Shown piece after piece: positions 1 through 31,395 of a stretch of 64,000 nucleotides of DNA. Below the pieces are notes generated by a model. That model worked only from the letters and a program-made list of their open reading frames with translations, ran no database searches and had not been told where the DNA came from. The stretch's first letter is position 1. Each line of letters starts with the position of its first letter. The stretch spans positions 25,945 through 89,944 of the forward strand of contig PLCB01000026.1 in the NCBI GenBank assembly GCA_003134695.1, read 5' to 3'. This DNA comes from Candidatus Zemynaea palustris (GTDB taxonomy: Bacteria > Vulcanimicrobiota > Vulcanimicrobiia > Vulcanimicrobiales > Vulcanimicrobiaceae). The position numbers and the translations under genes were made by a program.

Positions 1-456
1 GAACGCTACGTCGACTGCCCGTTTTCCGTCGCCGAGCAGTACGTCAGCGATTATCTCGAGCGGGCGGCAAAGGGCGGTCCAGAGGCGACGGTCCAGCTCC
101 CTCTCGTTGCCGGAAGTTTTACGATAAGCAGGAACGTCGAACTTTCATTCGATCGTAAGCGCGACGGCTACGATCCGGGACGCGCGCATTTTGAATCCAA
201 GATCCTTTGGAAGAGCGGAGCGAAACTGCTCCCCGACTTTTCCGGGGTCATTCGTACGCGGATTGCGGCGCCGGGAACGCTGCTGATCGTCGCGGGGCGC
301 TATTGCCCGCCCCTGGGTTTCTTCGGCACGATGTTCGACCGGCTGATCGGGCGCCGCATCGCGCGAGCGACCCTTCGCGATCTCGCCGAACGGCTCGGCA
401 GATCCCTCGAAAGCCGCGAGGCGCGTTGGCGCGAGCACTTGATCTCCGCGAACTAG
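1..456 (+). CDS. SRPBCC-like protein, 3' part only
   Basis: The frame is open from the first base and stops at TAG 454-456, giving the last 151 residues; the start lies outside the window. The visible part ends in an amphipathic helix rich in Arg, Leu and Glu, as in START/SRPBCC folds. A DFSG motif near residue 85 resembles the FPRFxG motif in the two genes at 1289-1723 and 1720-2286, so the three are probably paralogs. SRPBCC proteins bind hydrophobic ligands, but no ligand can be named from this sequence. It runs towards the phosphatase gene at 513-1277 (convergent, 56 bases apart). Confidence 0.6.
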   Translation, partial: ERYVDCPFSVAEQYVSDYLERAAKGGPEATVQLPLVAGSFTISRNVELSFDRKRDGYDPGRAHFESKILWKSGAKLLPDFSGVIRTRIAAPGTLLIVAGRYCPPLGFFGTMFDRLIGRRIARATLRDLAERLGRSLESREARWREHLISAN

Positions 457-26443: not shown

Positions 26444-28669
26444 TTAGACGCGAACGGTTCGCAAGCGTAGTGCGTTTGCGATCACCGAGACCGAACTGAA
26501 CGACATCGCCGCTGCGGCGATCATCGGCGAAAGCAAGAGTCCGGTTACCGGATAGAGGACGCCGGCCGCGATCGGGATGCCGAGCGTATTATACGCGAAC
26601 GCGAAGATCAGATTCTGCCGAATGTTGCGGATCGTAGCTTCGCTCAAGTGCCGCGCTCGCACGATGCCGCGCAGGTCGCCCTTGACGAGCGTCACTCCGG
26701 CGCTTTCCATCGCGACGTCGGTTCCTGTCCCCATCGCGATACCGACCTGAGCCAGCGCCAGCGCCGGCGCGTCGTTGATGCCGTCGCCTGCCATCGCGAC
26801 GAATCGGCCTTCACTTTGGAGGCGCTTGACGACCGCTGCCTTTTGATCGGGCAACACGTCGGCCATGACTTCGTCGATGCCGAGCCGGCCGGCCACCGCC
26901 TTGGCCGTGGTTTCGTTGTCACCGGTGAGCATGACGATGCGAATTCCGGACTGGTGCAACGCGCTGACGGCTTCGGCGCTCGTCGCTTTGATCGGATCGG
27001 CGACGGCCACGAGACCCGCCGGCATGCCGTCGACCGCGACGAACATGACGGTTTTCCCTTGGTTCCGCAACGCTTGCGCACGCGGCGCCAAGGTTGCGAC
27101 GGCGACGCCGAGATCGTTCATCAACGCGAGATTGCCGAGCGCGACGCTTTGCGTCCCGGTCCGCCCGCGAACGCCTTTTCCCGGAAGCGATTCAAAATCG
27201 GCGACGGCCTCGAGCGGCAGGGAGCGGCTGCGCGCTCCTTCGACGATCGCCGCAGCGAGGGGGTGCTCGCTGGCGCGCTCGAGGGAGGCGGCGAAGCGCA
27301 GGATCGTCGATTCGTTAAAACCCTCACCCGCAACGACGTCTTGAAGACGCGGGCGGCCTTCAGTGAGCGTTCCGGTCTTGTCGACGACGAGCGTGTCGAC
27401 GAGACGCAGCGTTTCTATTGCCTCGGCATTCCTGAAGAGCACGCCGAAGGTCGCGCCTTTTCCGCTCGCCACCATGATCGACATCGGCGTCGCAAGGCCG
27501 AGCGCGCACGGGCAAGCGATGATCAAGACGGCGACGGCGTTAACGATCGCGTACGCCATCGACGGCGCGGGCCCGACGACCGCCCAAACGACGAAGGTTA
27601 CGACCGCGACCGCGATCACAGCAGGGACGAAATAGCCGGAGACCACGTCGGCAAGCTTCTGAATCGGCGCGCGGCTGCGGCTCGCCTCGGCCACCATCCG
27701 GACGATCTGTGCGAGCAACGTCTCGCTTCCGACGCGGCGCGCTTCCATGACGAGCGAGCCGGTTCCATTGATGGTCGCGCCGACGACGGAATCACCGGGT
27801 CCCTTTTCGATCGGGATCGGTTCGCCCGTGATCATCGATTCGTCGATCGAAGAGCGGCCCTCGATGACGACACCGTCGACTGGGACTTTCTCGCCGGGCC
27901 GAACCCGGAGGTGGTCGCCGGCGTGGACGTCGTCAAGGCTGACGTCTCCCTCCGACCCGTCGGCATTGATGCGCCGCGCCGTCTTGGGAGCGAGCCGCAG
28001 CAGCGCTCGGACGGCGGCGTTCGTTTGGCTGCGAGCGCGCAGGTCCATCACCTGTCCGAGAAGGACGAGCGTCGTAATGACCGCCGCCGCTTCGAAGTAG
28101 ACGTCGACCTGCCCCGACATGCCGCGAAAGGACGCGGGAAACATCGACGGCGCGATGGTGGCGACCAGACTGTAAACGTACGCGACGGCGATTCCGAGGC
28201 CGATCAGCGTGAACATGTTTAGGTTGCGTGTCACGATGGAGCGCCACGCTCGCACGAAGAACGGCCAACCTCCCCAGAGCACGACCGGACTGCTCAGCGC
28301 GAGTTCTATCAAACGGATCGCGAAGGGTGGCAGTGGGTTGTAGACTCCCGGGAAATTCTCGCTCATCGCGAGCGCGAAAACGGGGACGCTGAGTGCGGCG
28401 CTGACCCAAAAGCGTCGCGACATGTCGCGAAGTTCCGGATTCTCGATTTCCTCGATCGTGACTTGACGAGGCTCGAGCGCCATTCCGCAGATCGGGCAGT
28501 CCCCGGGCTCGGAGCGAACGATCTGCGGATGCATGGGACAAGTCCACTCGACGCGCGTGGCAGCGAGCGGCGTCGCCGGTTCGAGCGCCATCCCACACTT
28601 CGGGCAGTCGCCGGCCTCGCCGGCCGTGATTTCGGGATGCATCGGGCACGTGTACGGAGGGTTATTCAT
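26444..28669 (-). CDS. Copper-type P1B ATPase with two N-terminal metal-binding motifs
   Basis: 741 residues. Two tandem heavy-metal-binding domains open the protein (YTCPMHPEI...[11 protein letters not shown] and WTCPMHPQI...[11 protein letters not shown], residues 7-67), in place of CxxC ferredoxin-like HMA domains. Eight membrane helices surround the transport motif [11 protein letters not shown]. The phosphorylation loop DKTGT and the hinge [10 protein letters not shown] are intact, so it should be active. It exports Cu(I) or Ag(I) from the cytoplasm. The stop is four bases from the convergent crotonase stop. No chaperone or CueR/CsoR gene is adjacent. Confidence 0.93.
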
Positions 28670-28760: not shown

Positions 28761-29489
28761 CTACGTCGAGTGACCGCGGTTAAAGGCGATCGTCTCCTCG
28801 AAATCTGCCGGCTTTGACGGGACGCCTGCGAGCAACGCCGAGACGAACGCCTCCGAAGAGGCGTGAGCGAGCGCCGCGTTGTGACGGCGTTCGAATCCGA
28901 TGGTGGACGACGGCTTACCGCTCATCGCCTTTCCGCATGGGCTGCCCGCGATGTGAGCCGGATAGACTTCGACATCATCGGGCAGCGCTAGTATTTTTTC
29001 GTGCAGCGAAGCGTAGAGCGTGCGCGCCGCGCCTTCGTCGCCGAAATCGGGACGTCCGACATCGCCGACGAACAATGTGTCGCCGGTCAGAACGAGCCAC
29101 GGCCATTCGCTGCGGGTACGATCGACGACCAGGAGTGAGATGCTTTCGGGCGTGTGGCCCGGGGTGTGCAGAACACGAACGATCACGTTCCCAAGCGATA
29201 CCACAGAACCATCATCGAGGGGTGTGAAAGGAAAAGCCACATCGGCACTCCGGTGAAGATGGATTGACGCGCCGGTGCGCGCCGCGAGAACACGCTCGCC
29301 GGAACGATGGTCGGCGTGCACGTGGGTCAAGAGGATCGTTTCGATCCGCATTCCGTTTTCGTTCGCGATGGTTTCGTAGTCAGTGACCTCGAACTGAGGA
29401 TCGACGACCGCGGCGCGGCCCTGGCCGCCTCAACCGAAAACGTACGACGCGCAGCCGGTTGCGGAGTTGAGCACCTGTCGAAAGATCAT
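28761..29489 (-). CDS. Persulfide dioxygenase-like MBL-fold protein with in-frame UGA
   Basis: The complete frame runs from ATG 29489 (overlapping the MFS stop, ATGA) through a TGA at 29430-29432 (codon 20) to the stop at 28761, 242 positions. Both sides of the TGA fit the family: residues 1-19 end GCASYVFG and 21-31 read GGQGRAAVVDP. The zinc motif is THVHADH (H56, H58, D60, H61), with TPGHTPE near 110 and TGDTLFVGDVGRPDF near 135. In relatives such as CstB the residue at codon 20 is Cys. The TGA may be selenocysteine, a nonsense mutation or a sequence error. An internal ATG at 29351 would give a protein lacking the first strands. Confidence 0.75.
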
Positions 29490-30733
29490 GAGACGCCCCG
29501 GAGCGGGAACGGAGATGTCACGATGTGCGTTTCGCGCATGCGCGCCGCGACGATGACTCCGGAAGCAAACGTGATCGCCGCGACGGCGACGATCGCGCTG
29601 CGCTGACCGAACGAGTGCGCGACGATTCCGGCGATCAGCGCGCCGAACGCGTAGCCGGCATCGCGCCAGAGCCGGTACACGCCGACCGCCGAGGCGCGAA
29701 CGAGCGGATCGACGACGTCGCCGATAGCCGCCAGCAACGTGGGGTAAACCATCGCCGTACCCGTCCCTAGCAAGACGGCGGCGAACAGCCATGCGCCAAA
29801 GTTGGCTGGGACGAGGAACATCCAGATCGCGAAGGCTTGCAGGCACATTCCTCCGGCAATCAGCCATTTACGGCCGATCGTGTCGGAGAGTGCGCCCGTG
29901 AAGAGTTGCAAGAACCCCCACGTCGCCGGATAGACGGCGGCGAGCACGGCGATATGCCCGACGTCGAGTCCCGCGACCGCAAAGTATAGCGGCAGGAGTC
30001 CCCATGCTAAGCCGTCGTTGAGATTGTTGACGAGCCCGGCTTGGCTGATTGAGAAAAGCGTCGGGTTGCGCCACGAGACTTCGGCGAAGAGTTGCCCAAA
30101 CGCGGCTGAAGGTCCAGCCGCTTTACCCGCTTCGAAGCGCGCGTGGCCGTGCGTCTCGCGCACCGCGAATACCGAAAGGACGAGGCCGACGGCGACGGCG
30201 ACCAAACCGAGCGCGAACGGCCACGGCCGCAAACCGTAATGCTCGGCGATGACGCCCGAGAGATACGCGGCGACGCCGACGGAAAGATATCCTGCGAATT
30301 CGTTGAGCCCCATCGCAAGCCCGCGTTGTTTTGGCCCGACGAGATCGATCTTCATGACGACCGTCATCGACCAGCACAAACCTTGGTTGATGCCGAGCAG
30401 CACGTTCGCGAAGATGATCCAGCCCCACGCCGGCGCGAACATGAGCAGAAACGGTATCGGAAGCGCAAACAACCATCCGGCGACGAGCAGCGGCTTCCGT
30501 CCGGTGCGATCGGCGGCGCGCCCAGCGTAGAGGTTGGCGAGCGCTTTCGTGAAGCCGAACGTCACGATGAAGGAGAGCACCGCCGTCTCGGAGGCTAACC
30601 CGAAAACGCGCTGGCCGGCGAGCGGTAAGACGTCGCGTTCGATTCCGACCATCGCGCCGACGAATGCGTTGACGAGGACGAGCAGCCAAAACCGACCGGC
30701 GTTCGCGCGCAGGCCCAGTCGATAGGCGGTCAC
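29486..30733 (-). CDS. MFS transporter
   Basis: 415 residues from GTG 30733, which overlaps the TGA of the ArsR-rhodanese gene (GTGA); longer versions of the frame only add a shadow of that gene. Twelve transmembrane helices are predicted. The loop AGRAADRTGRKPLL near 78-91 is the MFS signature A, repeated weakly as GALSDTIGRKWL in the second half. Position in an ArsR-rhodanese/MFS/MBL operon suggests export of a sulfur- or metalloid-related compound; the substrate is unknown. Confidence 0.9.
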   Translation of the reverse strand: MTAYRLGLRANAGRFWLLVLVNAFVGAMVGIERDVLPLAGQRVFGLASETAVLSFIVTFGFTKALANLYAGRAADRTGRKPLLVAGWLFALPIPFLLMFAPAWGWIIFANVLLGINQGLCWSMTVVMKIDLVGPKQRGLAMGLNEFAGYLSVGVAAYLSGVIAEHYGLRPWPFALGLVAVAVGLVLSVFAVRETHGHARFEAGKAAGPSAAFGQLFAEVSWRNPTLFSISQAGLVNNLNDGLAWGLLPLYFAVAGLDVGHIAVLAAVYPATWGFLQLFTGALSDTIGRKWLIAGGMCLQAFAIWMFLVPANFGAWLFAAVLLGTGTAMVYPTLLAAIGDVVDPLVRASAVGVYRLWRDAGYAFGALIAGIVAHSFGQRSAIVAVAAITFASGVIVAARMRETHIVTSPFPLRGVS

Positions 30734-31395
30734 GCCGAACGCGCGGTGGCGAGCCCTAACTCTTCCCATTCGGGGAAGCCGATACGCATGCGCCGAGCGC
30801 GGTAGCCACGCTTGCGGAGAATCTCCACCGCCTCGTCGGCGAAGGTACAGTACGGGCCGCGGCAATACGCGACGACCTCGCAGGTTTTTGCAAACGGCAG
30901 CCGTCGGCGCTTGCCCAGCTCGTCAATCGGCAGCGTTTGCGCGCCGTCGATGTGGCCAGCGTCGTATTCTCGAACGGGACGTACGTCGAGGACGACGAGC
31001 GACGGATCGCCTAGTCTGCGCGCGACTTCATCCGCGGAAACGTCGCTCCCCGAGGGGCGCGCAAGGTGGAGTTGCACGATACGATGCAGCTCGGCGTCAT
31101 AGCGCTCGGCCGTCTGGCGGAGGACGCGCAATAAGCCGGTGATCTCGCGCGAGGCGAGCCGGTAAAAGACTCGCGTCCCTTGTTTGCGCGTCGCGACCAG
31201 ATTCGCACCGAGCAACCGTCGCAAATGCTGCGAGGCGTTCGCGACGGACAGATCGAGCTCCAGCGCGAGTTCCTCGACGCTCCGTTCGCTCTGGGCGAGC
31301 AAGTCGACGAGCTCGAAACGCCGCGGGCTTGCGAGGGCGGCGGCGATCTCGGCGAACCGGGGATAAAGGGCGTCCTTAAATGCTCTCGTGGCCAT
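30730..31395 (-). CDS. ArsR-family regulator fused to a rhodanese domain
   Basis: 221 residues. An ArsR/SmtB winged helix fills residues 10-100 (LSVANASQHLRRLLGANLV is the recognition helix). It lacks the ELCVCDL metal-binding motif of arsenic sensors. A rhodanese domain covers 115-215, with the active-site loop CRGPYC (Cys178 and Cys183), which accepts a sulfane sulfur. Such fusions can sense persulfides through the rhodanese Cys. It is the first gene of the operon and has a palindromic operator over its own promoter at 31401-31418. The ATG lies about one base from the predicted transcription start. Confidence 0.92.
   Translation of the reverse strand: MATRAFKDALYPRFAEIAAALASPRRFELVDLLAQSERSVEELALELDLSVANASQHLRRLLGANLVATRKQGTRVFYRLASREITGLLRVLRQTAERYDAELHRIVQLHLARPSGSDVSADEVARRLGDPSLVVLDVRPVREYDAGHIDGAQTLPIDELGKRRRLPFAKTCEVVAYCRGPYCTFADEAVEILRKRGYRARRMRIGFPEWEELGLATARSA

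Follow-up and report, generated by a model that had tools for sequence, protein, structure and literature searches.

The closest described relatives of the protein considered here are the persulfide dioxygenases (PDOs), enzymes of sulfur detoxification within the metallo-beta-lactamase (MBL) superfamily. In AcPDO the iron ligands are H57, H113 and D130, the second histidine of the THxHADH motif is not among them, and a GSH-binding tyrosine (AcPDO Y173) is conserved in all three PDO types (PMC6060420). On the side of selenium, a 2026 review counts 119 prokaryotic selenoprotein families or subfamilies, and as far as its Table 1 goes, none of these is an MBL-fold protein or a PDO (PMC13188914). 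A literature search for an earlier MBL-fold selenoprotein likewise returned none, with unpublished annotation being possible. Here we describe an MBL gene whose product we predict to represent a new family of bacterial selenoprotein, in which selenocysteine (Sec) takes the place of a cysteine found in one group of PDOs.

A metallo-beta-lactamase gene with a single in-frame UGA

The window, by which we mean the whole stretch of 64,000 nucleotides that was analyzed, derives from Candidatus Zemynaea palustris (contig PLCB01000026.1). On its minus strand, a frame of 242 codons (28761..29489; Pfam Lactamase_B 5.7e-13) extends from ATG 29489 to a stop codon at 28761-28763, and its sole internal stop is a TGA at codon 20 (29430..29432). 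Read in order, the gene consists of MIFRQVLNSATGCASYVFG-TGA-GGQGRAAVVDPQFEV...THVHADH... up to the terminal stop, and reading through the one TGA yields a PDO-like protein of 242 aa with U20. An earlier note on this DNA had reported this TGA with family sequence on both sides, in agreement with our reading of the frame, and had proposed a candidate selenoprotein, a proposal now backed by Sec machinery, by the presence of UGA or Cys at codon 20, and by a SECIS-type element. We are close to certain that the UGA at 29430-29432 is decoded as selenocysteine and that the MBL protein is a selenoprotein; the selenium itself is a prediction from computation, and a very likely one. In these uncultured Eremiobacterota-type bacteria, ordinary annotation would reduce the gene to a truncated standard ORF of 196 codons starting at ATG 29351.

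Protein family, fold and active site

By sequence, the nearest solved structures are the MBL-rhodanese proteins 3tp9 and 3r2u, followed by PDOs, and a Foldseek search with an AlphaFold2 model built on the window and contig sequences (pLDDT 91.4) ranked 3tp9, 3r2u, human ETHE1 and M. xanthus PDO first. Sequence and fold thus agree with the earlier description of the gene as persulfide dioxygenase-like, the activity being predicted, and on this basis we regard a PDO function as reasonably probable. The principal alternative is that the protein is a selenoprotein of another kind, i.e., a glyoxalase II-like hydrolase or other MBL enzyme, acting for example on a different compound of sulfur, selenium or a metalloid that the ArsR/MFS unit described below would handle; we give this reading a substantial minority of our confidence. 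The MBL protein matched no selenoprotein model in NCBIfam, where all matches fell below cut-off, including the sulfur transferase/dioxygenase Blh and the best partial match, GloB (81.7 vs 200.8 bits), which would suit a hydrolase; but the closest solved structures, by sequence as well as by fold, are of the CstB type and the ETHE1 type.

The active site can be read in both directions. His56, His112 and Asp137 align with the iron ligands of AcPDO, and these positions are conserved, His112 being replaced (by Tyr) in the G059 copy only. At the second histidine of THxHADH, the copies in G036, G059 and Rokubacteria as well as several Cys orthologues have Gln, which could point away from a PDO, but this histidine does not bind iron in AcPDO. 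The GSH-binding tyrosine is absent from the MBL protein, where the alignment has HIAGSPC in place of HDY, and the substrate may therefore differ from that of known PDOs. Finally, Pfam detects the MBL domain only, with no fused rhodanese domain on the 242-aa chain, but a rhodanese-bearing regulator adjoins the MBL gene.

In the AlphaFold2 model, Sec20 is the last residue of strand 13-20 and precedes a turn. By alignment it corresponds to a Cys of CstB, as the earlier note had expected for CstB-type relatives, and Cys185 is common to nearly all homologues. Cys or Sec occupies position 20 in 32/41 sequences that have Cys13 and in 9/65 that lack it. A redox pair formed by Cys13 and Sec20 was considered and rejected because, in the model, both residues lie on this same strand, seven residues apart, too far to bond.

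Gene neighborhood

The MBL gene is part of a conserved unit with the order ArsR-rhodanese / MFS / Sec-MBL. In the window, it is preceded on the minus strand by an MFS transporter gene (29486..30733, starting at GTG 30733; Pfam MFS_1 1.3e-40) and by a gene for an ArsR-type HTH fused to a rhodanese domain (30730..31395; Pfam HTH_5 and Rhodanese). Start and stop codons overlap at both junctions within the unit, as ATGA (29486-29489) for the MBL ATG and the MFS stop, and as GTGA for the MFS GTG at 30733 and the ArsR-rhodanese stop. A four-base overlap had earlier been claimed for every other junction of this operon as well; it is confirmed where the MBL ATG meets the MFS stop, but the rule is limited to the three-gene unit, given the gap of 91 bases between the MBL gene and the gene downstream of it. 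The latter (26444-28669) encodes a heavy-metal P-type ATPase with two N-terminal HMBD motifs, and was rejected as a member of the unit because, as a neighbor of the Sec gene, it is not conserved elsewhere.

We searched 149 genomes of the phylum for UGA-containing copies of the gene and additionally scanned GTDB contigs, of which 80 were kept. Among these 80 contigs, an MFS gene like that of the window stands beside every Sec form and, apart from these, only beside the homologues on L081, L083, L128 and L146. The ArsR-rhodanese gene is kept in most neighborhoods: none was seen in the vicinity of G010, L128 or L146, G036 and L084 have contigs that stop too early to judge, and the order in L083 is ArsR-rhodanese, MBL, MFS. 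Its product is a probable sulfane-sulfur-sensing regulator, and the window copy (30730-31395) is a candidate for a direct sensor of sulfane sulfur.

UGA or cysteine at codon 20

In 13 other genomes of the 149 searched, the best match contains exactly one TGA, and in all 13 it falls at the same codon, within GCASYVFG-TGA-GGQGRAAVVDP or close variants of it. These genomes belong to families f1 (six genera), f3 (G016) and f8 (G010), and the scan of GTDB contigs added one further UGA copy, on a Rokubacteria contig (L084, ~55% identity). Protein identity between the UGA copies and the window copy ranges from 53 to 77%, and codons 1-19 are as conserved as the remainder of the gene, indicating that the frame is translated across the UGA. 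For 14 independent orthologues each to have one TGA, and at this very codon, is far beyond chance.

Because the MFS gene adjoins every Sec form and only four other homologues, the orthologue set comprises 15 UGA copies (the window copy counted) and four Cys copies (L081, L083, L128 and L146, all with the MFS neighbor), with no third state at codon 20 within the set. Close relatives thus have UGA or Cys at this codon, the pattern for which the earlier note had suggested looking, and where there is a stop it is always TGA, never TAA or TAG. Farther out, the homologues are mostly longer frames (~450-550 codons), and the residue at this position is Gly, Ser, Asp or Cys. With columns 13 and 20 left out, a quick tree joined the Sec forms to the four Cys forms and to three Ser forms as a single group of 21 (SH-aLRT 96), and three changes were needed for the Sec label. 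In several genomes (G010, G057, G077, G124 and G130), the Sec form coexists with another, longer homologue, which marks the Sec gene as a paralogue in its own right. The copy in G127 (L034 / G127:C310:20014-20725) is split by a frameshift near codon 147, which is either real or an assembly error.

A stem-loop after the UGA

RNAalifold, applied to 14 sequences, returned a stem-loop that starts from the UGA, with UGAG pairing with CUCA and GGCCGC with GCGGUC around a three-base loop. The proposed SECIS occupies 29395..29432 of the window (minus strand) and is made up of a lower stem, UGAGG/CCUCA (29428-29432 with 29395-29399), a 6-bp apical stem, GGCCGC/GCGGUC (29415-29420 with 29406-29411), and the loop GCC (29412-29414). 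Codon choice supports this predicted structure independently of folding: in 11 close copies, the fraction of identical codons at the same amino acid is 0.92 at codons 25-32 versus 0.51 gene-wide, and codons 24, 25, 27-32 and 34 show zero variation, whereas the third base of codon 26, which is a loop position, uses all four bases. In addition, the SelD genes of the source genome and five relatives have a 6-bp stem with a three-base loop at the identical distance after their UGA (+13..18 with +22..27). The sequence of the SelD stem-loop differs from that of the MBL element, and the share of window positions at which six pairs form in this register is 0.4%.

The window's own element has an only moderately low fold energy, which beats ~93% of synonymous shuffles (133/2000 were as low). 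Bacterial SECIS elements vary; the G010 and Rokubacteria copies have another form, CUGUGG-UGGAU-CCACAG at +23..+39, and G016 has no clear form of the element after the UGA. A different hairpin, GCGGC-CAGG-GCCGC (+5..+18), to which the earlier note had drawn attention, is present in the window, but among 15 sequences it retains 5/5 pairs in nine and only 1-4/5 in six, and the third bases of codons 22-23 vary freely. It was accordingly rejected as the SECIS: a SECIS-type element does follow the UGA, but it is not the hairpin that was originally pointed out.

Machinery for selenocysteine insertion

The source assembly (2.70 Mb, 61 contigs, 96.7% complete) encodes SelA (1.5e-139), an adjoining SelB (295 bits, with its C-terminal part) and SelD (6.9e-116), all matching above the curated cut-off. 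SelD (G000:C28:18196-19122, L018) is itself a selenoprotein, with an in-frame TGA within LTALSSGGGUASKVG, a known Sec site. Across the phylum, SelA is present in 121/149 genomes and in 12/14 of those that carry the UGA gene, the two without it being G121 (83% complete) and G059 (91% complete). The types of SelD differ among genomes, with one Sec-type and one Cys-type in G121 and Cys types only in G119 and G124; in the Rokubacteria genome, a Sec-type SelD accompanies SelA.

An intact tRNA-Sec (69-77 bits) was found in nine of the 13 UGA-bearing relatives checked, and five selC genes tested with ARAGORN were all classified as tRNA-Sec with anticodon UCA. In the source assembly, the Rfam model detected ordinary tRNAs only and no tRNA-Sec, and ARAGORN found no selC on the selAB contig. 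With the selC of G036 as a query, however, the 5' half of the gene was recovered (97% over 38 bases; G000:C55:73172-73209, L076:1499-1540): this segment, CTTCAAATC, ends right after the anticodon and is followed by unrelated sequence, and a pattern search of the source assembly for the 3' half found nothing. Our reading is that part of the assembly is rearranged or missing here; the 5' half may have been left behind at an integration site or may mark an assembly join. An intact selC is the one item for Sec decoding that was not found in this assembly: of the machinery that the earlier note had proposed to look for, SelA, SelB and SelD are present, but selC is represented by its 5' half only, though it is intact in those nine relatives.

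The absence of an intact selC from the organism's own assembly would fit a UGA that is read by non-Sec means, such as a near-cognate tRNA (e.g., Trp), or that serves as a regulated readthrough site without selenium. So would G059, in which no SelA, SelD or selC was found though the UGA gene and the stem are kept; since it lacks SelD and selC and has Tyr for His112 (as well as Gln for the second His of THxHADH), this lineage may be losing its Sec system. We nevertheless consider readthrough of this sort very improbable, given that the codon is invariably TGA, that the residue alternating with it in syntenic orthologues is Cys, that the genome has SelA, SelB and a Sec-type SelD, and that the RNA element matches that of SelD. 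Still more improbable is that the gene is a pseudogene, or that its TGA arose by nonsense mutation or by an error of sequencing, with perhaps only the 196-codon ORF from ATG 29351 being made: that ORF exists and the G127 copy is frameshifted, but the same TGA, with no other stop, in 14 further genomes with the protein conserved on both sides, along with strong codon-level constraint around it, refutes a local event of either kind, the two alternatives that the earlier note had allowed for.

Proposed mechanism

The conserved UGA, the exchange between Sec and Cys, the Sec machinery, the RNA element, the fold and the synteny are all computational results; from these we go on to infer an enzyme activity, a role for Sec, a mode of regulation and a transport step. 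SelB and tRNA-Sec would decode the TGA at 29430-29432 as selenocysteine, guided by the stem-loop that starts at the UGA, to yield a 242-aa MBL-fold enzyme of the PDO type with Sec at residue 20, the place of the CstB-type Cys. A mononuclear iron site (His56, His112 and Asp137 by homology) would probably oxidize the sulfane sulfur of a persulfide. For Sec20 we put forward, as a hypothesis that we regard as doubtful, the role of a reactive selenolate accepting or presenting the sulfane sulfur, or else of a redox switch near the active site. Control of the unit would fall to the ArsR-rhodanese protein as a sensor of sulfane sulfur, and the MFS protein would serve as the exporter of a product or substrate. 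It is conceivable, though less likely than not, that the locus represents the founding Sec family of the metallo-beta-lactamase superfamily: a Sec-dependent PDO in which a Sec20 selenosulfide carries sulfane sulfur to a non-heme iron, with a rhodanese-bearing ArsR regulator.

The predicted selenoprotein would add to the MBL-fold superfamily a family absent from the 2026 inventory, to the extent of its Table 1, and would place Sec in persulfide chemistry, beside the Sec-containing sulfide:quinone reductase and rhodanese listed there (PMC13188914). Because a single conserved gene cluster exists with either a Sec or a Cys version of the protein, the benefit of selenium in sulfane-sulfur chemistry can be tested directly.

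Comparison with known systems

The Sec-type SelD of the same genome has its presumed decoding in common with the MBL gene, and its stem-loop follows the UGA in an equal register, but the two proteins are unrelated. ETHE1 and the type I PDOs (4chl, 4ysb, AcPDO) resemble the MBL protein in fold (TM 0.86-0.87), in the positions of the iron ligands, in THxHADH and in the Arg of GRPDF, at 29-31% identity, but they have the GSH-binding Tyr that it lacks, and the M. xanthus PDO has Asp at the position of Sec20. Closer still are the CstB-type (type III) PDO-rhodanese proteins of S. aureus (3r2u) and A. acidocaldarius (3tp9), which include the best sequence match (1.6e-51), match the MBL protein in fold along its full length (TM 0.91-0.94), and share the Cys185 region GSPCGK. 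They differ in having Cys instead of Sec and in bearing C-terminal rhodanese domains on the same chain, and type III PDOs have Phe or Tyr where the MBL protein keeps His61 (PMC6060420). The nearest parallel in the use of selenium is provided by the Sec-type sulfide:quinone reductase type III and the Sec rhodaneses, which, as entered in Table 1 of the review, have folds different from that of the MBL protein but likewise have Sec replacing a reactive Cys in a protein of sulfide or sulfane-sulfur metabolism (PMC13188914).
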